A model generated the notes under the pieces. It was given only the letters and a program-made list of their open reading frames with translations, searched no databases and was not told where the DNA came from. DNA of 64,000 nucleotides from Sulfurovum lithotrophicum (GTDB lineage: Bacteria; Campylobacterota; Campylobacteria; Campylobacterales; Sulfurovaceae): the NCBI RefSeq assembly GCF_000987835.1, contig NZ_CP011308.1:310001-374000 (forward strand), read 5' to 3'. Positions 8,152 to 59,014 of this stretch are shown here, piece after piece; position 1 is the first letter of the stretch; each line of letters starts with the position of its first letter. The position numbers were made by a program, and so were the translations under genes.

Positions 8152-8214
8152 GTAGGGTGTTGTCCCATGACAACACCTTTTGAAACAGCGTGTTGTAAGG
8201 GTACAACACCCTAC
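8152..8214 (+). repeat. GTAGGG palindromic element, ispG-dnaB spacer
   Basis: GTAGGGTGTTGTCCCATGAC opens it and GGGTACAACACCCTAC closes it. It is the near-identical sister of the copy inside priA, with a shorter middle. Confidence 0.92.
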
Positions 8215-8233
8215 AGAAATAGAAGGTAGTTTC

Positions 8234-9670
8234 ATGGAAAACATGTATAACCTGAATATCGAAAGGGCAGTACTTTCAGCCATTATTTTTGATCCGGAGA
8301 TCTATGAGGAGATCGCCGCGAAACTTCATCCGCATGATTTCTATCTGCCGTTCCACCAGCATGTCTTTCTTGCAATGGAAGAACTTTCACGGGAAGAGAA
8401 ACCCATAGATGAAGAATTCCTCCGTTCCAAGCTTGTCAGTATGGGCAAGTTCGATGAAGTGGCGATGCTTGAGCTGCTTTCGGCAAACCCCATCTCCAAT
8501 ACCGCAGCCTACCTTTCCGAGATCAAAGCCAAATCAAGCAAGCGGGCATTGGCAACTCTGGCGACAGAGATCAAGAAAGTCACCATAGAGGATGACTTGC
8601 CTGCCGAAGAGGTAATGAACCTGGTAGAGAAGAAACTCTACGAGATCACCCAGAACAATACCAATGAAGACTTCAGGGAATCCAAAGAGATCACTCTGGC
8701 GATGATGGATGAGATCAACCGTCTCAAAGCGCTGGGAAACTCTAAACTCATTGGTACGGATACGGGGTTCAAGAATCTGAATGATAAAACCTCCGGGTTT
8801 GGTAAAGGGGACCTGGTGATCATTGCTGCGAGGCCGGCAATGGGGAAAACTGCCCTGGTACTCAATATGGCGCTCAGGGCCATTGAAAGAAACGAAGGGG
8901 TAGCCTTCTTCTCGCTGGAAATGCCGGCGGAGCAGCTGATGCTGAGGCTGCTTTCTGCCAAGACATCCATACCACTGCAGCAGCTGAGGATAGGGGACTT
9001 GCGTGATGAGCAGTGGAGCCAGCTCTCTGCTGCGACAGATGAACTTTCGCAGAAAAAGCTTTTTGTCGATGACGGCGGGTATGCAACCATCCACCATGTA
9101 CGGAGCAAACTGCGTAAGCTCAAGACACAGCATCCGGAGATATCCGTTGCGATCATCGACTACCTTCAGTTGATGAGCGGTGAAGGCAAAGAGGGGAGAC
9201 AGCAGGAAGTCTCTGAAATATCCAGAGGCTTGAAACAGTTGGCCAGAGAGTTGGAGATACCTATCGTGGCGCTTTCACAGCTGAACCGTGGACTGGAAGC
9301 TAGAGAGAACAAGCGTCCAATGCTCTCTGACCTGCGTGAATCGGGAGCGATAGAGCAGGATGCCGACATCATTCTTTTTGTCTATCGTGATGATGTCTAC
9401 CGTGAAGCCAAAGAGAAAGAGAAGGAGATGAAAGCCAAGGCGGAAGGGAAAGAGTATACTTCCGATTTCAGGAAGAAAGCCGAAGAGGAAGCGGAGATCA
9501 TCATAGGCAAACAGAGGAACGGACCGACCGGGACGGTCGATCTGGTCTTTCAGAAACAGTACACGCGTTTTGTGGATGCAACGCACTCTCCTGCCTTTGA
9601 AGTGGTGTATGAAGAGAGTGACATCCCTGCCAATACAGGGAATATCTCCGTGGATATGCCCTCCATATAA
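8234..9670 (+). CDS. dnaB: Replicative DNA helicase DnaB
   Basis: 478 aa from the ATG at 8234, which has GAAGGT upstream; earlier in-frame codons fall within the repeat. The N-terminal DnaB domain (NLNIERAVLSAII start) is joined by a linker to the RecA-like ATPase. Walker A is RPAMGKT near residue 200, followed by FFSLEMPAEQL, the Walker B-type AIIDYLQLM, SQLNRGLEAREN and SDLRESGAIEQDAD. The C-terminus has the KQRNGPTG and FQKQYTRF motifs. It unwinds DNA at the fork as a hexamer. No intein was seen. Confidence 0.97.
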   Translation: MENMYNLNIERAVLSAIIFDPEIYEEIAAKLHPHDFYLPFHQHVFLAMEELSREEKPIDEEFLRSKLVSMGKFDEVAMLELLSANPISNTAAYLSEIKAKSSKRALATLATEIKKVTIEDDLPAEEVMNLVEKKLYEITQNNTNEDFRESKEITLAMMDEINRLKALGNSKLIGTDTGFKNLNDKTSGFGKGDLVIIAARPAMGKTALVLNMALRAIERNEGVAFFSLEMPAEQLMLRLLSAKTSIPLQQLRIGDLRDEQWSQLSAATDELSQKKLFVDDGGYATIHHVRSKLRKLKTQHPEISVAIIDYLQLMSGEGKEGRQQEVSEISRGLKQLARELEIPIVALSQLNRGLEARENKRPMLSDLRESGAIEQDADIILFVYRDDVYREAKEKEKEMKAKAEGKEYTSDFRKKAEEEAEIIIGKQRNGPTGTVDLVFQKQYTRFVDATHSPAFEVVYEESDIPANTGNISVDMPSI

Positions 9671-50199: not shown

Positions 50200-52713
50200 C
50201 TAGACGCGCATCATATCTTCTTTAACTATTACAATCCTAAACAAAGCACCATCTACAGTATTCATCACACTAAGCTTTCCAGCACAATGTTCTTCAACAA
50301 TCGTCTTGCTCATATAGAGTCCAAGTCCCGTACCCTCTTTTTTGGTTTTAGTACTAAAATAAGGATCAAAGATATTTTCCATGATCTCTTCCGGTATGCC
50401 CCCGGCGTTATCACTGACTTCTAAAATATATTTGTCATTCTCTTTATAGGTGAATATTTTGATATAAGGATTCTCTGTTTTCTTCTCAAGCAGTGCATCT
50501 TCTGCATTTTTAATGAGATTTAAGACCACCTGTTTTAACTCATTGGAATAGGTACTGAACTTATCGTGACAGTTTAACTCCTGGATCAACTCTATATTAC
50601 TATTTTTAATGGAGATACCTATAATCTCTAGAACGGATGCTACAAGTTCATCGTATGATGTCTCTACTTTTTTCTTAGTTGGTTTAAAGAAATTTCTAAA
50701 ATCATCGATGGTTCTACTTAGATGTTGTGCGAAATTGGAAATATCGTGTGCTTTTTGTTGAGCAGTATCATTATCCAGCTTATTTAAACTGGCTTTGAGC
50801 TCTATGGATGCACTGGTTGAAGAAATGGCAGATAGGGGTTGTCTCCATTGATGCGCGATCATAGATATCATCTCTCCCATTTGGGCCATTCGGGATTGTT
50901 TTATCAAAAGAATGTCTTTTTCTCTTATTTGCCACAGTTGAGCATCAACTTCCTGTTGTAAATGATCATTTAAATGTTTGATCTTATCCTCTGCTTTCTT
51001 TTGCTCTGTGATGTCACGAGAAGAGCCTATTATACCGATAGGCTCTCCTTTCTCATCTTTTAGCAGTGAAAGAGAAAGCTCTGCAAATATGACTTTTTTT
51101 GACTTTTTAAGTAAACGTATCTCTGCCATATACGTACCTCTTTGCATAAGTTTATCAATATTTTTTTGGAGTAATTCGTAATCTTCTTCTAAATAGAGTG
51201 ATCTAATATGTTTCCCTGATATTTCATCAGCTTTATATCCAAGCAATAGCTCTGAACCTGTATTCCAACTATTAATATAGCCATCAAGGTCAGTTGATAT
51301 CACCGAGTCATGGATTTGATCAATAATTTGTGCCTGGTGGGAGTATTTGAGTTGTAGTGCTTTTTGCTCGGTAACATTGGTATGGATCCCAACCATACGC
51401 AAAGCTTTTCCATGCTTATCATATTGTATTATACCTCTGCCCAATATCGATAGCCATTGTCCATTTCTATGTTTCAGACGATGAATTCTTCCAGTATGCT
51501 CTTTTTTAGCATTGACAGTTATTTGAACATCCGACATAATATCTTCATAATCGTCAGGATGGACACGATCTGCCCATGTAGAAAAGAGGTTGGGAAGTTC
51601 ATCATCTCTGTAGCCCATCATCTGCTTCCATTGAGGAGATATGTAAACACTATTATCTACCATGTTCCATTCATAAACACCGGCATTATAGCCCAAAAGT
51701 GCCAACTCCATACGCTCTTTAAGCGTAGTATTTTCATCTTCCAGCCTTTTTCGCTCGGAAATATCTCTCCAGACACCATGAAGCAGCTCATCCGCATTCA
51801 ATGTGATCCTAGTTAATACGATTTCGGTCCAGAACATTTCACCGTCTTTTTTTTGATATAACCATTCAAAACTATGTGTGCCGTTTTCAAGTGCAATCTT
51901 TGTCATTTCAACCATTTTGACAATAGAACGTTTACCATCAGGTTGATATTTTGGCATAAATTTTGAGAGATCTGTAGTTAAAACTTCCTCTTTTGTACTA
52001 TATCCAAACATTTTCAATATTGCTTCATTACAGTCTTGAAACCTACTTTCTTTGATAAGCATTATTCCATCTGAGGATTTTTCATACATGGTCTGGAATG
52101 TTTCTTCTAAAAAGGCCGTATTTCTCAATTTAATATATTGACGATATCCAAAAACTATATGCAGTATCATATAGAATAATAAAAAAAGAGCGAGTGTCAG
52201 GAATATTTCTCCACCATGCAATAATGCAAGAATAATAAGAGGTGTTACACTCAAACTTACAAATAGTATAAAAGTAATAATGACATTACCAAGAGTAGAG
52301 ATTGAAGTTGCAGCTATTAAAATAATTACTATAGTCATTAGAAGAATATACAGATCAGGAACATTATAAATATACATGAACCATATTATCACTGCATACA
52401 GTGCAGCAGTGAGTGAGGTTACTGTAAGCAATGCTATAAGATATTTTTGTATATTCTTTTGAGAATATGACTTCTTTAAAAAATAGAGCAGTTTTTTACT
52501 AATAAAAATACGTCCGATAAAGAGAATAATATGTAAAAATAGCCAAGTATAAATCAAATTATGTGGCAAAAAAGAATAGAGTATAAAGGCACTTACAGAT
52601 GAAACCATAATATTTGCGGCAAATGCCCCAAAGATGGCGGTCTTTGCCATATTTGAAATTAGTTTTGGATGATAATCTAAAGAGAATATTTTTTTAAAAT
52701 TTATTGTTTTCAT
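50200..52713 (-). CDS. Membrane PAS-domain sensor histidine kinase
   Basis: 837 aa. Six membrane segments fill about 22-195. Three PAS domains follow (starts near 208 MYEKSSDGIMLI, 337 ALLGYNAGVYEWN, 460 IIDQIHDSVISTDL), each with PAC-like YQKKDGEMFWTEI or the like. A coiled coil leads to the phospho-acceptor in MIAHQWRQPLSAIS and HATPase with NLIKNAEDALLE and GTGLGLYMSKTIV. There is no receiver domain, unlike its upstream neighbours. Its start overlaps the stop of the REC-HK-REC gene in ATGA. Confidence 0.9.
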   Translation of the reverse strand: MKTINFKKIFSLDYHPKLISNMAKTAIFGAFAANIMVSSVSAFILYSFLPHNLIYTWLFLHIILFIGRIFISKKLLYFLKKSYSQKNIQKYLIALLTVTSLTAALYAVIIWFMYIYNVPDLYILLMTIVIILIAATSISTLGNVIITFILFVSLSVTPLIILALLHGGEIFLTLALFLLFYMILHIVFGYRQYIKLRNTAFLEETFQTMYEKSSDGIMLIKESRFQDCNEAILKMFGYSTKEEVLTTDLSKFMPKYQPDGKRSIVKMVEMTKIALENGTHSFEWLYQKKDGEMFWTEIVLTRITLNADELLHGVWRDISERKRLEDENTTLKERMELALLGYNAGVYEWNMVDNSVYISPQWKQMMGYRDDELPNLFSTWADRVHPDDYEDIMSDVQITVNAKKEHTGRIHRLKHRNGQWLSILGRGIIQYDKHGKALRMVGIHTNVTEQKALQLKYSHQAQIIDQIHDSVISTDLDGYINSWNTGSELLLGYKADEISGKHIRSLYLEEDYELLQKNIDKLMQRGTYMAEIRLLKKSKKVIFAELSLSLLKDEKGEPIGIIGSSRDITEQKKAEDKIKHLNDHLQQEVDAQLWQIREKDILLIKQSRMAQMGEMISMIAHQWRQPLSAISSTSASIELKASLNKLDNDTAQQKAHDISNFAQHLSRTIDDFRNFFKPTKKKVETSYDELVASVLEIIGISIKNSNIELIQELNCHDKFSTYSNELKQVVLNLIKNAEDALLEKKTENPYIKIFTYKENDKYILEVSDNAGGIPEEIMENIFDPYFSTKTKKEGTGLGLYMSKTIVEEHCAGKLSVMNTVDGALFRIVIVKEDMMRV

Positions 52714-54332
52714 ATTTTGATCAAATACTTTCGCAGAGTACTGGTGAGTGAAGAGGGATCAACAGGTTTGCTCAAGTATTCATCCATACCAGCTTTTAAA
52801 AAGCGTTCCTTATCCCCTTTAAGGGCATTTGCCGTTAATGAAATGATTGGTGTATGTTTTAAACTACCCTCTTTTTCCATAGTCAAAATTACTTTAGTCG
52901 CTGCAGTACCACCCATTTTTGGCATATTCTCATCCATCAGAATTAAGTCGTATTTTGTGGTTTTGAACTTTTCAATTGCCTCAATACCATTGATCGCGGT
53001 ATCATATGTTAAGCCGGCATTGTTGAGAATAATGCCAAGGAACATCTGATTGGCTTCAATATCTTCAACAATCAATATATGACCCTTGAGAGGCTCTGTA
53101 AGCTCAATACTCTGGGTACACTCTTGGTGTATATCCTCAGAAACCGGCATATCTATAGCCAATGTAAAAGTACTTCCCATAGTTTCTTGACTCTTAAGTG
53201 TTAATGTACCGCCAAGAAGTTCAGCCAGTCTGGCACTGATAGACAACCCCAGACCCGTACCACCATACTCCCTGCTTGTTGAGTGCTCTGCTTGTAAAAA
53301 AGGTTCAAATATAAGCTTTTGTTTATTTGCAGGAATACCGATGCCAGTATCTTGGACACGAATAGTTAAACACTCCTTCTCGTAATAAACAGAACATTTG
53401 ATACTTAAACCCTTTGGTGTAAACTTAACAGCGTTAGAGAGAAGATTTGAAAGGATCTGCTTGATTCTGTGTATATCAGAGAAAAGAAATTTTGGTATAT
53501 CATCAGCAAATTCAATTTCAAACGCAATATTTTTTTGAGATGCTTTCTTCTGAAAAAGTTCCATGACTGTGATCAACTCTTCATAAGGATTAAAATTGAT
53601 ATTATCAATCTCCAGGTTTCCATTATCTATTTTACTAATATCTAAAATATCACTGATGATCTGCAGAAGTGAATCCGAAGAGCTTTTAATGACTTGTAGG
53701 TATTTGAGCTTTTCTGCATCCGTCTCGTTTTCATGCAGTAGGGAAATAAAACCGGTAATTGCATTAAGTGGTGTGCGAATCTCATGTGACATATTTGCTA
53801 AAAATTGGCTTTTTTGATATGAAACATATTCAGCTTCCTTTTTTGCTGCTGCTAAAATAAGATTTTTCCTTTGGATATCTTCATATTGTTTTTTTATAAC
53901 TTTTTTATTTTGAAGAGAGGTTGCAATATGGAAAATCTTTTTTTGAAATTGCGTAATATCTATGGGTTTTAGTATAAAATTTGAAATTCCCATATTGATC
54001 AATTCTAGGAGATAATCTGATTCATTGTGGGCTGAAATGATGAGAATTATTTGTTCTTCATTGAGTGATAAAATTGATCTGCTCATTTCGATACCGTTCA
54101 ACTTTGGCATCTTGATATCAGTAATGACAATATCATAATACTGATTATTATCATTGTAGTATTTTTTATACTTTTGAAGACCTGTCTCCCCATTTTCTGC
54201 TGAATCAATTTTTAAAAAAAAATCTTCCATCATACCCAGAGTGCTGTTGTGTACTACTGTATTGTCCTCAACATATAAAACGGTTAGATCTTTACTTAAT
54301 TTTATTAAAATTTCAAGTTTCTTGTTTATCAT
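52710..54332 (-). CDS. REC-histidine kinase-REC hybrid protein
   Basis: 540 aa without membrane segments. The N-terminal receiver has YVEDN and the phospho-Asp in VITDIKMPKLNG. The kinase core has the His in MSHEIRTPLNAITGF, NLLSNAVKFTP and GGTGLGLSISARL. The C-terminal receiver has IVEDIEANQ, LILMDENMPKMGG and LSKPVDP. A cytoplasmic kinase with a receiver at each end can pass phosphate among partners of a phosphorelay. It lies 33 bp downstream of the HPt gene. Confidence 0.92.
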   Translation of the reverse strand: MINKKLEILIKLSKDLTVLYVEDNTVVHNSTLGMMEDFFLKIDSAENGETGLQKYKKYYNDNNQYYDIVITDIKMPKLNGIEMSRSILSLNEEQIILIISAHNESDYLLELINMGISNFILKPIDITQFQKKIFHIATSLQNKKVIKKQYEDIQRKNLILAAAKKEAEYVSYQKSQFLANMSHEIRTPLNAITGFISLLHENETDAEKLKYLQVIKSSSDSLLQIISDILDISKIDNGNLEIDNINFNPYEELITVMELFQKKASQKNIAFEIEFADDIPKFLFSDIHRIKQILSNLLSNAVKFTPKGLSIKCSVYYEKECLTIRVQDTGIGIPANKQKLIFEPFLQAEHSTSREYGGTGLGLSISARLAELLGGTLTLKSQETMGSTFTLAIDMPVSEDIHQECTQSIELTEPLKGHILIVEDIEANQMFLGIILNNAGLTYDTAINGIEAIEKFKTTKYDLILMDENMPKMGGTAATKVILTMEKEGSLKHTPIISLTANALKGDKERFLKAGMDEYLSKPVDPSSLTSTLRKYLIKI

Positions 54333-54365
54333 AAGTATTCCATTTTGTTTGTAGCGTTGTTCGCT

Positions 54366-54683
54366 TTATGTCTCATCAAACAATATTTGTGAAATTTCTT
54401 TTAAGGCAACGTCACTTTCAAGATGAGATCTTATTTCATTTAATTTTTCTGCCAGTGCATGATTTCCTAAATTGAACAATAGCCCTTTTAGCGCATGTAA
54501 AACATTATTGATCTCATCGATGGAAATCGTATCTTCATGAAGCAATATCTCTAATTTGGTCAAATTTGCCTGCAAGTCTTTTTTCGCCCGATCAACTAAT
54601 GGGGTTATCTGTTCTTCCGGAAATCCAAACGCTTTGAGGTGCTCGTATGCAATGGCTTCTGTTTCACGGATTATCTTTTTCAT
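54366..54683 (-). CDS. HPt-domain phosphotransfer-like protein
   Basis: 105 aa, all helical. Residues VLHALKGLLFNLGNHALAEK match the HPt active-site pattern HxxKG...NLG, with the probable phospho-His in HALKG near residue 68. It overlaps the end of the upstream hybrid kinase by 20 bases. It is the likely shuttle between the hybrid kinases on either side and the LuxR-type regulator. A decayed duplicate lies at 49988-50110. Confidence 0.75.
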   Translation of the reverse strand: MKKIIRETEAIAYEHLKAFGFPEEQITPLVDRAKKDLQANLTKLEILLHEDTISIDEINNVLHALKGLLFNLGNHALAEKLNEIRSHLESDVALKEISQILFDET

Positions 54684-56544
54684 CTATCACCCTTTCAATC
54701 ATTTCAAATAAAATATCAAGTTGTAACGGTTTTTCAAGTAATCCCGTAAAACCGGCTTGTGCTACTTTGCCATAGGTACTCTTGTATATGTCCGCTGTCA
54801 ACGCATATGTTGGAGGTACATGATCATGAATGGTTTTTAGTCTTTTTAGAACTTCAAAACCGTTCAAGCCGGGCATTTTCAAGTCTATAAAGACAAGATC
54901 ATACGCTCTGGATTTATACATTCCCAGCGCTTCATAACCATCTGTTGCCAAATCTATGTTGGCAAAAGGATATTTTTTTGTTATGAACATTTTAAGTATT
55001 TCCAGGTTTGTTTCCATATCGTCAATAGCAAGAATATGTAGGTCTGCCTGCTTATTCGTATCTGTTTTTTCTATGGTTTTTTTGGACTCCAGTATAGTTC
55101 TAGGCTTCAAATATGTTGATATCGGGGCAAAATGATGATAAATTTTATCAAAGTGTTCAAGAGAGATATTTTGCCCGGTCTCTTCGGCAATAAAAGTTGT
55201 TTTGTTAAATATCCCGAGTGTTTTCAGGTAGTTTACAAGTGCATCGAATCTTATGTAGCCATCGTGGGAAGTAGTGATTGAAACAATGTCTGGGGCTTTA
55301 TCTTTTTTGGCCAGCATGCATGTTATGAATTTCTCCGGATTATTGAAGGTGATGATCTTGTATCCATACTCTTTTAGGAAATGCATCTTCTGGTCAAATC
55401 CGTATGTTTCTTTTTGGTCATTGAAAAAGCAAATTGTTCTCTGCTCTATTTTGCCAGGTTCATTGCTTTCCTTTTGCAATGTGACAGTAAAAGAAAATGT
55501 ACTTCCCACTCCGACCTTGCTTTTGGCAGTTAAAGTTCCGCCTAACTTTTGTGCCAGCTTCTGTACGATATACAGACCGAGTCCTACCCCGTTCCTGTCT
55601 GTTTTAAAGCGGCTGAAAGGGTCAAACATATTTTTCAGCTCTTTGGGCGTCATTCCTATACCGCTATCTTCAACCTCAAAGCATATTTCTATACTTTCTT
55701 CAGATTCCTGGATCTTTCTGACTTTGAGATGAATAAAACCATGGTCCGTGTATTTAATGGCATTGCTTAACAGGTTCATAATGATTTCTATGAACCGCTG
55801 GGCATCCCCCAATACTTTTTTTGGGAAAAAGTCCACCTCGGCCTTAAAGACCACATTTTTTTCTTTTAATCCTATAGTAAGATTGTCGATACATTTCAAG
55901 ATCATTTGATCTACCCAAAAAAATTCCTCTTTTATCTCCATCTGCCCGGCGTCTATCTTTGTGCTATCCAAAATGCCGGTGACAAGGTTCTTCAACACCG
56001 AAGATGCATTTTCGGCTTTCTCAAGAAAGGTTCTGTCCTCTCCTTTTAAAATATCTTTTTCCTTTATGAAAGTAATATAGCCGATAATAGCATTGAGTGA
56101 AGTACGCATATCATGGGAGATCCCAGAGATCATAAGCTGTTGTGTCTCAAGTGTTTGGTTTAATCTCTCACTTACACGCTGCAAGATAGTATGAATAATG
56201 CTTTCTCTTTCTTCAGCTATTTTGGCGTAACGGCAGCGCTGAATGAATATCGTTTCGAAAAAAAGATTAAAAAATGTTTTTAACTCTTCTTTGTCGGAGG
56301 CATATTCTTCTCTGGAAAGTAAAAAAGAAAAAGTCTCAATCATACACTTAAGTACTTGCATGGAATATTCAGGATCGTTTTGAAAATACATAGAATATCT
56401 GATCGTGTAAAAAAGTTCATCGGTTTCTCCGAGCAAAGCTTTTTCCAGATAATCCCCCATCATCTGAGATTTTTCGAGCCCCATACCAAATTGGCCGGCT
56501 ACATTTTTAATGATCTGTTGTTTGTCTTTTTTATGCAGTTTCAT
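54664..56544 (-). CDS. Hybrid histidine kinase with pseudo-receiver and receiver
   Basis: 626 aa, cytoplasmic. An N-terminal helical region of about 150 residues precedes the phospho-acceptor in SGISHDMRTSLNAIIGY. The HATPase has NLLSNAIKYTDHGF and GVGLGLYIVQKLA. A degenerate receiver-like stretch (RTICFFNDQKETYGFD on) lacks an acceptor Asp. The terminal receiver has AIDDMETN, LVFIDLKMPGLNG and LEKPLQL. It starts four bases inside the end of the FIST-protein gene, so FIST input to this kinase is likely. Confidence 0.9.
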   Translation of the reverse strand: MKLHKKDKQQIIKNVAGQFGMGLEKSQMMGDYLEKALLGETDELFYTIRYSMYFQNDPEYSMQVLKCMIETFSFLLSREEYASDKEELKTFFNLFFETIFIQRCRYAKIAEERESIIHTILQRVSERLNQTLETQQLMISGISHDMRTSLNAIIGYITFIKEKDILKGEDRTFLEKAENASSVLKNLVTGILDSTKIDAGQMEIKEEFFWVDQMILKCIDNLTIGLKEKNVVFKAEVDFFPKKVLGDAQRFIEIIMNLLSNAIKYTDHGFIHLKVRKIQESEESIEICFEVEDSGIGMTPKELKNMFDPFSRFKTDRNGVGLGLYIVQKLAQKLGGTLTAKSKVGVGSTFSFTVTLQKESNEPGKIEQRTICFFNDQKETYGFDQKMHFLKEYGYKIITFNNPEKFITCMLAKKDKAPDIVSITTSHDGYIRFDALVNYLKTLGIFNKTTFIAEETGQNISLEHFDKIYHHFAPISTYLKPRTILESKKTIEKTDTNKQADLHILAIDDMETNLEILKMFITKKYPFANIDLATDGYEALGMYKSRAYDLVFIDLKMPGLNGFEVLKRLKTIHDHVPPTYALTADIYKSTYGKVAQAGFTGLLEKPLQLDILFEMIERVIDEKDNP

Positions 56545-57650
56545 GTGCTTTCTCGCTTTTCGGTGAGTACGGCAAGTGTCAATGTCTGGTTTTGCAATAC
56601 GGAAAGATCCTGAGGATCCAGAGGGCCTATTTCACCAAATGAATGCAGACCTATAAAGGGGATATAAATGTTTTTTGCAAGCCGCATGATGTAGATCGGC
56701 TCCATTTGCCCCCAATGACCCTTATAGGCTACACAGGCAAATAAAAAAGCGATACTGTCATTTGTAACAAGATGGGAAAATTTGTCCAGTTGGTCTATTT
56801 GCTTTTCTCGGCTAAAAGGTATGGCCAGCTTGAGTTTGTCACCTTTTGAAACCTTCTTAAAGAGAGTGATTGTTTTGGCTTTCCTGTCTATCGACAAGAT
56901 AGAAGAGATAGGTTTTTTAAAAGAGTGATTATGATCATTAAATGGTGTAATAAAAAACGGTTGGTCATATGACTCAATGGTTTTCAGAGATAAGGTACCG
57001 ATCATACTTTCGATCATATCCAGTGCCGGTCGATGTTCAATTTCAATAATTTTGAATCCCTCTGTGCGGGTAATCTCCAGATCAAATCCTACCGGATCAA
57101 AATCATGTGCCGATATGCCTTTAAGAGAATAGTCTTCTTGATCGATCAGCCATACCAGGGTGCTTTCAGAAAGATATTCTCCGTTATAAAATATGCTTCC
57201 CCCTTTTATATCGGATGATTTAGCTCCTGCGATCGCACCGAAAAAACTGTTTTTACCGATATTTTCCTGCAGTTGTACAATGATCTGTTCAAGAGCATTG
57301 CCGTAACGGGAACTTAGAACAATGGCGCTGTATTTTTTATTTTTTTCGACAGGAATCTTCTGTTTTTCCTGATCAGGGAAAAGCTGCAGCTTATAGGATC
57401 CCTTTTTCATCTCTATACACATATAGATACAGGGGTGTGTCCGGTTCACATCAACATAAGGGATCGAATCATAAATATTACTCTCACTGCTGCATCCAAT
57501 AATGTCAACATCGGGGAAACGGGCTTTCAGGGTTTCACTACATTGAGAAAAAAGTTTCTCTTTGTCACTCTCATAAAACCCTACTATAACTGTCGGTATG
57601 AAACCAATAGAGTCAATTTGATCAATATTTGTCAATACAGCGTAATTCAT
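56541..57650 (-). CDS. FIST-domain sensory protein
   Basis: 369 aa from the ATG at 57650, with AAGGGAAGGG upstream; an ATG at 57680 has no site. FIST_N (TVIVGFYESDKEKLFSQCSE, DVDIIGCSSESNIYDS, FFGAIAGAKSSDIKGGSIFY) is followed by FIST_C (SILSIDRKAKTITLFKKVSKGDKL and FLFACVAYKGHWGQMEPIYI, PFIGLHSFGEIGP). FIST proteins are predicted soluble sensors of small ligands, perhaps amino acids, working with kinases or chemotaxis receptors. It is translationally coupled to the hybrid kinase next to it. Confidence 0.88.
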   Translation of the reverse strand: MNYAVLTNIDQIDSIGFIPTVIVGFYESDKEKLFSQCSETLKARFPDVDIIGCSSESNIYDSIPYVDVNRTHPCIYMCIEMKKGSYKLQLFPDQEKQKIPVEKNKKYSAIVLSSRYGNALEQIIVQLQENIGKNSFFGAIAGAKSSDIKGGSIFYNGEYLSESTLVWLIDQEDYSLKGISAHDFDPVGFDLEITRTEGFKIIEIEHRPALDMIESMIGTLSLKTIESYDQPFFITPFNDHNHSFKKPISSILSIDRKAKTITLFKKVSKGDKLKLAIPFSREKQIDQLDKFSHLVTNDSIAFLFACVAYKGHWGQMEPIYIMRLAKNIYIPFIGLHSFGEIGPLDPQDLSVLQNQTLTLAVLTEKREST

Positions 57651-57805
57651 TTCCCTTCCCTTTATACAATAAATTGTCAATTCAATTAAAGTATTAACTA
57701 TAGAATAGTATTTTTTATCTAAAATATATGTAGGAATAATCTTACTTATACTATTATTTTAGCTTTTTAATAAATGCATCAAAAGGTAATATTCTGGCTT
57801 CTTCT

Positions 57806-58456
57806 TCACTCAAATTCATGCAGAGCAAAATGAATAAGCTGATTGATATTGGAGAGTGATAGTTTTTCCAGTATACGTTTGCGATAAGTAGATATAGTTT
57901 TAGGACTTAAATCAAGTTTTTCTGCGATCATTTTACCGCTATAGCCTGAGCTAAGCAGGTTATACACTTCAAGTTCCCTTTTGGATAAAGACGCTATCGA
58001 GATCTTTGGTGTCTTGTTTAAAATGGTACCATAAGGAAGCGTTTCCCTATATGCCGAATCAAGATACTTTTCCCCTTCAATGATGCTGTTTATTGCAAGT
58101 ATCAGATCGGTAGATACCATTTTTTTATTTAAATAACCCGAAGCTCCAGCTTGGAGAGATTGTAAAGCATAGGGGTCTTCAGGAAACATGCTTAAGATCA
58201 ATATGGGCAGTTCGCTGAATTTATCACTGATTTCACGTACAGTGTGTATGCCATTTTTGTCACCGAGATTTAGATCTAAAATCAAAAAATCATAGCTTTT
58301 TTTGGAAAGAAGGCCCATGAGCTCATTGAAGGAAGAAGCTTCATCCTCAATGTAAAAATCCTTTTGGGACTCCAAAATAAACCTGATGCCGCTACGCACG
58401 ATCTCATGATCATCTGCGACAATGATTTTATAGGTATGATTATGATGCATGCTCAT
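57806..58456 (-). CDS. NarL/FixJ (LuxR)-family response regulator
   Basis: 216 aa from an ATG behind GGGAGGGGG. The receiver has VADDHEIVRSGIRFIL, the phospho-Asp in FLILDLNLGDKNG and GYLNKKMV. The LuxR helix-turn-helix reads SLSKRELEVYNLLSSGYSGK then MIAEKLDLSPKTISTYRKR. It is the only DNA-binding protein in this signalling cluster, so it is the likely output. It lies 155 bp upstream of the FIST gene on the same strand. Confidence 0.93.
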   Translation of the reverse strand: MSMHHNHTYKIIVADDHEIVRSGIRFILESQKDFYIEDEASSFNELMGLLSKKSYDFLILDLNLGDKNGIHTVREISDKFSELPILILSMFPEDPYALQSLQAGASGYLNKKMVSTDLILAINSIIEGEKYLDSAYRETLPYGTILNKTPKISIASLSKRELEVYNLLSSGYSGKMIAEKLDLSPKTISTYRKRILEKLSLSNINQLIHFALHEFE

Positions 58457-59014
58457 CCCCCTCCCTTTTTTTCACTCAAATATGAGCAACTTGCAGATCT
58501 CAATGAAATCAATTGCTTTACTATTTAAATAAAAGTATTACCAAGAGATTACTTATTAAATATTGATTTGAATATGAAAAAAAGCCTTTTTCACTGCTCG
58601 GTAAATGTAATTTTAGATGATTTATTATAACATAGTTTTATTATAATGGTCAAATTATTTTAGGTCATAGTGTGATCTGTACTAGTGTTCAGAACTGGCT
58701 CAGTCGTTGCGTGACAGTGTTAAGTGCTCAGAGTTACGAAAGTGCAGTATTATATTTTTTTGAAGCGCTTAAAGATCAGAAGGATAACTGCTGTTTCAAC
58801 AGCAATAAGCAAAAAATGCAGATCATAGACTTGCTCCTGACTGTTTGTTTCACCATAGAGAGTCGATATTTGAGTAAAAAAGATACCCAGATTTAAGATT
58901 TAGGGGCTTTAAGGTGCTAACTGACTCTAATGGTGAAAATAACTTTTAAGAAAAATGGAAAGAAACTATTTTATGTTATACTCCTACTCAACAAATCTTC
59001 AAGGGAAATCCCAA
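58457..59014. other. Intergenic region without a clear gene
   Basis: A 74-codon frame from a GTG at 58672 to 58896 has AGGT upstream and a TATAAT at 58642-58647, so it may be a small gene or RNA. Its product is Cys-rich with no known motif, so I do not call it. The rest is A+T-rich and holds promoter-like sequence for the divergent genes on both sides. Confidence 0.4.

Follow-up and report, generated by a model that had tools for sequence, protein, structure and literature searches.

A probable FIST-linked phosphorelay in Sulfurovum that may join several kinases to one HPt protein and one GacA-like regulator

Pairs of a FIST-domain protein and a soluble histidine kinase have been described in Vibrio, Pseudomonas and Burkholderia. 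In Vibrio cholerae (PMC4398556, PMC6769237, PMC7046293), the FIST protein VpsV (NosP) is encoded with a cytoplasmic hybrid kinase, VpsS, which shares one histidine phosphotransfer (HPt) protein, LuxU, and one response regulator, LuxO, with three membrane kinases. The Pseudomonas aeruginosa system, NosP-NahK-HptB together with GacS/GacA, likewise combines a FIST sensor, a hybrid kinase, a stand-alone HPt protein and a GacA-type palindrome, and HptB is described as acting on rsmY control indirectly (PMC11784011, PMC4950607). In Burkholderia NosP-NosK-NosR the FIST gene lies beside a kinase whose DHp domain is preceded by some 130 residues; this kinase, NosK, has no membrane part, no known sensor domain and an unexplained N-terminal stretch and is not presented as a hybrid, NosR has an HD-GYP output, and the described operon is without an HPt gene (PMC12570481). 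Here we analyse a comparable set of six genes in the deep-sea bacterium Sulfurovum lithotrophicum, lying within a 64,000-nucleotide stretch of its complete 2.2 Mb genome (positions 310,001 to 374,000 of NZ_CP011308.1; hereafter the window). A literature search by title found no FIST phosphorelay in Sulfurovum.

All six genes are open on the minus strand between 50200 and 58456, in the order LuxR-type response regulator (LuxR), FIST protein (FIST), soluble hybrid kinase (FISTHK), stand-alone HPt protein (HPt), a soluble kinase with a receiver at each end and no membrane part seen (RHR), and a kinase whose hydrophobic N-terminus was read directly from the sequence (memHK; Table 1). Open reading frames and domain search confirm the genes, order and domains given by a sequence-only reading of this DNA. 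That reading also proposed that several kinases act on one HPt and one LuxR, and our analysis points the same way: we think it probable, with some reserve, that FIST-FISTHK and RHR/memHK form a many-to-one phosphorelay onto one HPt and from there onto a GacA-like LuxR. The basis is the gene content, the domains, the co-occurrence across genomes, a shared palindrome, and the absence of that palindrome from one control locus that lacks the LuxR. By analogy the relay would work like VpsV-VpsS-LuxU or NosP-NahK-HptB up to the HPt; we claim membership in neither. Unlike the Vibrio system, its output is of LuxR/GacA type rather than LuxO, its HPt lies within the FIST operon, it has the second soluble kinase RHR, and a shared putative operator stands upstream of sensor operons. 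The Pseudomonas arrangement differs in that here HPt has the GacA-like regulator as a neighbour, and the palindrome stands ahead of sensor operons that code for proteins.

Our survey covered 61 genomes of the Sulfurovum genus group (G000-G060, the window genome being G000). FIST orthologues of at least 33% identity occur in 11 other genomes, and the closest FIST relatives of the window genome are mostly Sulfurovum or Epsilonproteobacteria. FISTHK directly follows FIST in 11 of 11 relatives' loci (counting G025 and G059, where the contig end cuts the kinase), and HPt directly follows FISTHK in all nine where the contig reaches. This recurrence of the pair, and of HPt where the contig reaches it, goes beyond chance; in the neighbourhood survey that the sequence-only reading had named as a check, the genes do co-occur. 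Moreover, the HPt and LuxR families are found in the same 16 genomes, RHR in 15 of these and in one of the 45 others (16 in total; Fisher 3.6e-12), usually at another locus, and FIST in 12 genomes, all among the 16. FIST and RHR occur together in 11 genomes, FIST alone in 1, RHR alone in 5 and neither in 44 (Fisher 1.1e-7). Since Fisher values ignore kinship, we turned to a dnaB tree of 54 genus genomes, seven without a usable dnaB being left out, among them the FIST-bearing G025 and G059. On this tree HPt/LuxR changes 10 times and RHR 11 times, and RHR goes with HPt/LuxR in 6 independent supported pairs with none opposite (median sign-test p 0.031). The window genome has a single HPt and a single LuxR, so FISTHK and RHR plausibly share them; single copies of both, in the presence of both kinases, are also found in G020, G023 and G049, the G023 count being less sure because that genome is 58% complete.

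Further support for a shared output comes from a comparison of upstream regions, which revealed a palindrome of 18 bp, TGTARG-N6-CYTACA. The published upstream activating sequence of GacA reads TGTAAG-N6-CTTACA, also over 18 bp, and lies upstream of target promoters (PMC4950607). Our palindrome is this sequence with one relaxed position per half, and by sequence it belongs to the same class. In 930,164 bp of distinct loci there are 23 perfect palindromes against 0.2 expected, and 40 matching at least 11 of 12 positions against 5.2 expected (22 and 37 when three duplicates from overlapping loci are removed); since the scanned loci were chosen for the module, this enrichment concerns module neighbourhoods. 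Similar sites stand upstream of FIST in G020, G023, G025 and G049, upstream of an N-truncated kinase in G056 and G058, upstream of c-di-GMP enzyme operons and one exopolysaccharide operon, and, at 12/12, upstream of the unlinked RHR operon of the sister species G020. The 429,519 bp of LuxR-bearing genomes other than the window's hold 32 sites of at least 11/12, of which 27 lie outside gene models. All but two of the 27 precede FIST, kinase, RHR, REC, PAS, GAF-kinase, LuxR, PilJ or large-kinase genes, and the two others stand before a Wzc-like exopolysaccharide gene (G020) and a lone REC protein (G024). Five of the 32 fall inside gene models; we think that two of these (G009, G056) are real and the gene models over-long. 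The 161,828 bp of genomes without this LuxR, a set unmatched for module genes except in G043, contain one site, inside a dnaB fragment. G043 keeps the RHR, REC, GAF-kinase, PAS, Roadblock-like and phosphatase genes; no LuxR match was found there, and for HPt one weak match within a larger protein. At the divergent PAS/GAF-kinase promoter the palindrome is 12/12 in ten of ten LuxR-bearing genomes and 8/12 in G043.

In the window genome the palindrome scan covered 944,004 bp (43%). All three of its intergenic sites precede operons with a FIST gene (Table 1). Two of these loci, at 1000693 and 68060, were chosen for their FIST genes. Sequence from 1-60 kb and from 78-898 kb, the window included, was taken mostly without such selection, and its only intergenic palindrome is the one upstream of the window FIST operon.

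Several observations weigh against this reading. The window genome has 5 sites of at least 11/12, two of them inside genes, equal to the shuffled mean of 5.0, so that evidence of function there comes only from where the sites lie and from the single perfect one; its two further FIST loci have no palindrome. Nor was one of at least 11/12 found in the FIST loci of G009, G015, G024, G032, G050 and G055, in locus L080, or upstream of the PilJ gene sets of G000, G020 and G023. On the dnaB tree FIST and RHR give only 3 independent pairs, an underpowered and non-significant comparison, and the window genome encodes two other separate Hpt-domain proteins (309 and 437 aa) that RHR could use. The missing palindrome in the FIST operons of G015, G032, G050 and G055 goes with a LuxR recognition helix SAHHxHIL, and the genomes with STYRxRIL (G000, G020, G023, G025, G049) have the palindrome. 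L080, with the STYR-like ATYRSRIL yet no palindrome, is a plain exception.

How might such a relay run? FIST, which has no kinase of its own, would bind a small ligand and, docked on the N-terminal helical domain of FISTHK, set the activity of this kinase. Phosphate may then pass from the FISTHK histidine to its own receiver, to His63 of HPt and to the LuxR receiver, and RHR, probably fed by memHK, would load or drain the same HPt. The GacA-like LuxR would bind the palindrome some 80-100 bp upstream of the FIST operon, thus controlling the production of its own sensors, and may also control c-di-GMP enzymes and, in the sister species, exopolysaccharide export. In this scheme the ligand, the docking, the direction of phosphotransfer, the palindrome-binding protein and the choice between activation and repression are what we infer.

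The docking step is suggested by the kinase itself. FISTHK has no Pfam match ahead of HisKA (residue 135), and its residues 1 to ~112 are helical in the predicted structure; the fold search covered the kinase core and receiver. G056 and G058, which lack FIST, keep the gene order: a kinase sharing 50.7-52.5% identity with FISTHK overlaps HPt, and RHR follows. This kinase begins at window residue ~111, so that it lacks exactly the N-terminal helical domain. The domain cannot be hidden upstream, since the space there is 252 and 139 bp against the 330 bp missing, and no FIST remnant was found upstream of either kinase. These two kinases group with those of the window genome, G020, G023 and contig B135 in the kinase-core tree (87/91, not starred). 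Being helical and missing together with FIST, the N-terminal domain is, from model and comparison, the likely FIST dock. On the other side, the loss in G056 and G058 is one event, and FIST and the domain are contiguous, so that a single deletion could have removed both. The joint absence points to the grip of auxiliary FIST sensors on soluble kinases, of which we found no description in the portions of the literature consulted.

For the ligand, our best guess by analogy with characterised FIST sensors is nitric oxide (NO), bound through heme. FIST passes both domain cut-offs (PF08495, FIST_N, 59.1 bits against 23.2; PF10442, FIST_C, 29.8 against 28.5), and its predicted structure (pLDDT 84.9) matches in the Protein Data Bank (PDB), at E <= 0.001, only four entries of FBXO22, which carries the eukaryotic FIST domain; searches of PDB sequences with the single FIST sequence or with a FIST profile were uninformative. 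That FIST senses NO is a guess, since it scores 19.5 bits with the NosP model NF041558, which requires 450, and this tells against it; we rejected FIST as a plain NosP member on that score. Like NosP, FIST is co-encoded with a histidine kinase without a known sensor domain of its own. It is quite possible, at somewhat less than even chances, that FIST senses another ligand, such as an amino acid or other metabolite. The wide miss of the NosP model fits such a ligand, as does the proposal (PMC4398556) that the FIST domain binds small ligands generally. In favour of NO, the characterised FIST and soluble-kinase pairs in the literature portions available are heme/NO sensors. In the orthologue alignment His346 and Cys316 of FIST are invariant and His192 nearly so, and a role for them in heme binding would be conjecture. 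Relatives' FIST operons, moreover, carry PilJ proteins and a large kinase whose window-genome orthologue has a NIT (nitrate/nitrite-sensing) domain (47.3 bits, cut-off 24.9).

The claim that the genes form a self-contained module found no support, as RHR and memHK stand beside the FIST core in only two of the 12 FIST genomes, RHR adjoining HPt in the FIST locus only in the window genome and G023, and relatives' FIST operons carry extra genes. In many relatives REC and GGDEF-EAL genes precede FIST, and PilJ-domain proteins and a ~1030-residue hybrid kinase follow HPt; in the window genome these genes are absent from the FIST locus or lie elsewhere. Its PilJ-kinase set lies at ~598.9-605.3 kb of contig C1, the chromosomal neighbourhood of the whole FIST locus in some relatives. 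There (L071:6869-13316) we find four PilJ-like proteins and the NIT-domain hybrid kinase, which has no recognised Hpt domain; this set might feed the same HPt as an additional input. Eleven of the 12 FIST genomes have PilJ, as do 14 of the 49 others.

Outside FIST loci, RHR mostly belongs to a set whose other members are a soluble PAS protein, a protein of Roadblock-like character (without a Pfam match), a histidine phosphatase superfamily protein that is presumably SixA-like, memHK, LuxR and HPt; several relatives add a Ras-type small GTPase (L103:71-577; a Roadblock-like example is L104:6234-6623). The window genome, G020 and G023 have no Roadblock-like gene. In G020, RHR and memHK form a pair on their own, with neither LuxR nor HPt next to it, and memHK has a different sensor part (7TMR-DISM) on a kinase core 77% identical.

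Such separation raises the prospect of two insulated circuits side by side, a FIST-FISTHK-HPt-LuxR relay and a memHK-RHR circuit that uses its own receivers and another HPt or regulator. The rarity of the RHR-memHK and FIST adjacency and the other Hpt proteins of the genome would suit it, as would the finding that in many relatives the two sets each have an HPt and a LuxR of their own. Two copies of both are found in G009 (one LuxR split), G015, G032, G050 and G055; G024 has two HPt and one LuxR, G025 (whose FIST contig ends inside the kinase) one HPt and two LuxR, and G059, where RHR was not found, one of each. A quick LuxR tree, from which the split G009 gene and the module-2 genes of G050 and G055 are missing, resolves the LuxR proteins of two-hub genomes into a FIST-type and an RHR-type group and places the single-hub copies apart from both; the HPt tree has weak support and a long-branch warning. 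We nonetheless regard insulation in the window genome as unlikely, since this genome, G020, G023 and G049 have one HPt and one LuxR for both kinases, the unlinked RHR operon of G020 bears the same palindrome, and HPt adjoins RHR in the FIST-less G056, G058 and G022. Quite improbable, finally, is that the palindrome belongs to a second NarL/GacA-type regulator and the LuxR controls unrelated genes: further NarL-type regulators are likely, as 17 candidates in the window genome scored in the search for the LuxR family, and the LuxR gene itself has no palindrome there, but G043 retains the sensor genes and lacks LuxR, stand-alone HPt and palindrome alike, and helix type pairs with the palindrome as described above.

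We return now to the parts of the proposed many-to-one relay. By score its proteins lie outside the named families: with the NahK/ErcS model NF041832, which needs at least 400 bits, FISTHK reaches 132.9 and RHR 190.8, and LuxR, for which the UvrY/SirA/GacA model NF007018 is the best match over all NCBIfam models, reaches 130.2 bits against a cut-off of 280. The statement that the set has no known name is right only in part, since the logic of FIST, soluble kinase and shared HPt is published for Vibrio and Pseudomonas, although FIST falls far below the NosP cut-off. HPt scores 18.7 bits with Pfam Hpt, below the cut-off of 24.6, and keeps the HxLKG motif, in which all 18 aligned sequences have His63 and Gly67 and nearly all have Lys66. 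FISTHK has one canonical receiver and, ahead of it, a receiver-like alpha/beta stretch (residues ~369-460) without a Pfam match. Tight overlap describes three junctions (4, 20 and 4 bp, the FIST/FISTHK overlap being 4 bp), with gaps of 33 bp between RHR and HPt and of 155 bp between the revised FIST start and LuxR, which lies upstream of it. That start is most likely the ATG at 57650 rather than the TTG at 57680, since a good ribosome site precedes it and orthologues start there.

Table 1. Features of the locus and intergenic palindromes of the window genome (window positions; the last two rows are genome positions)
Feature	Position	Strand	Basis or context
memHK, kinase: hydrophobic N-terminus, three PAS, HisKA, HATPase, no REC	50200..52713	-	domain search
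RHR, soluble kinase REC-HisKA-HATPase-REC	52710..54332	-	domain search
HPt, stand-alone, HxLKG with invariant His63	54366..54683	-	domain search and alignment
FISTHK, soluble hybrid kinase: N-domain, HisKA, HATPase, receiver-like stretch, REC	54664..56544	-	
FISTHK canonical receiver, residues 504-616	54697..55035	-	domain match and conserved Asp
FISTHK N-terminal helical domain, residues 1 to ~112, putative FIST dock	56209..56544	-	model and orthologue comparison
FIST_N-FIST_C protein, putative cytoplasmic auxiliary sensor	56541..57650 (start revised from 57680)	-	
Putative operator AGTAAGATTATTCCTACA, TGTARG-N6-CYTACA 11/12	57729..57746	-	~80-96 bp upstream of FIST start codon
LuxR/NarL-type response regulator, REC and GerE	57806..58456	-	domain search
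Intergenic site 1 (the putative operator above)	window FIST operon		
Intergenic site 2, perfect	1000693		before FIST and PAS-GGDEF-EAL
Intergenic site 3	68060		before REC-GGDEF and FIST-kinase-REC-REC-HPt

A few further observations concern the surroundings of these features. The operator was also considered as an RcsAB box, the window site being close to TaAGaatatTCcta as given in PMC4325325, but the relatives' perfect copies fit GacA spacing better; an adjacent palindrome, ACTATNCTATAGT, was dropped, since of the loci compared just those of the window genome and G020 have it. The element AAAAGTCCTATAG, followed by a T-rich sequence, is common to G009, G032, G050 and G055 (L045, L042, L043, L046), where it precedes REC and an outer-membrane-like gene, and judged by its sequence is possibly a binding site of the SAHH-type LuxR. 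In G016, without the LuxR and HPt families, a FIST gene and then a PAS-hybrid kinase with its own Hpt lie between exopolysaccharide-type genes (L047). Upstream of LuxR in the window, some 470 bp (58457-58929) before a thiol-disulfide gene have no gene model. The dnaB gene, used above for the tree, has in many Sulfurovum two matching parts within one frame of ~820-850 residues (e.g. L200-L211), a pattern such as an intein at about window residue 212-224 would give; the window dnaB (8180-9670) is uninterrupted.

More generally, we tentatively suggest, as a possibility short of an even chance, that the GacA-like regulon is largely its own sensor array, with one HPt/LuxR hub that collects the inputs of FIST and other kinases, one palindrome, three FIST operons, two of them with c-di-GMP enzymes, and polysaccharide export in the sister species. 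In some relatives the hub is duplicated, the regulators have diverged from STYR to SAHH and the FIST operons are palindrome-free, which may be one relay splitting into two insulated ones. For FIST-coupled phosphorelays this would provide a DNA target open to testing, and the natural series of genomes, some with a single shared hub and others with two separate ones, would allow the sharing and the insulation of inputs to be compared directly. For sulfur-oxidising vent bacteria, the relay would offer a possible route tying small-molecule sensing to c-di-GMP and the biofilm matrix.

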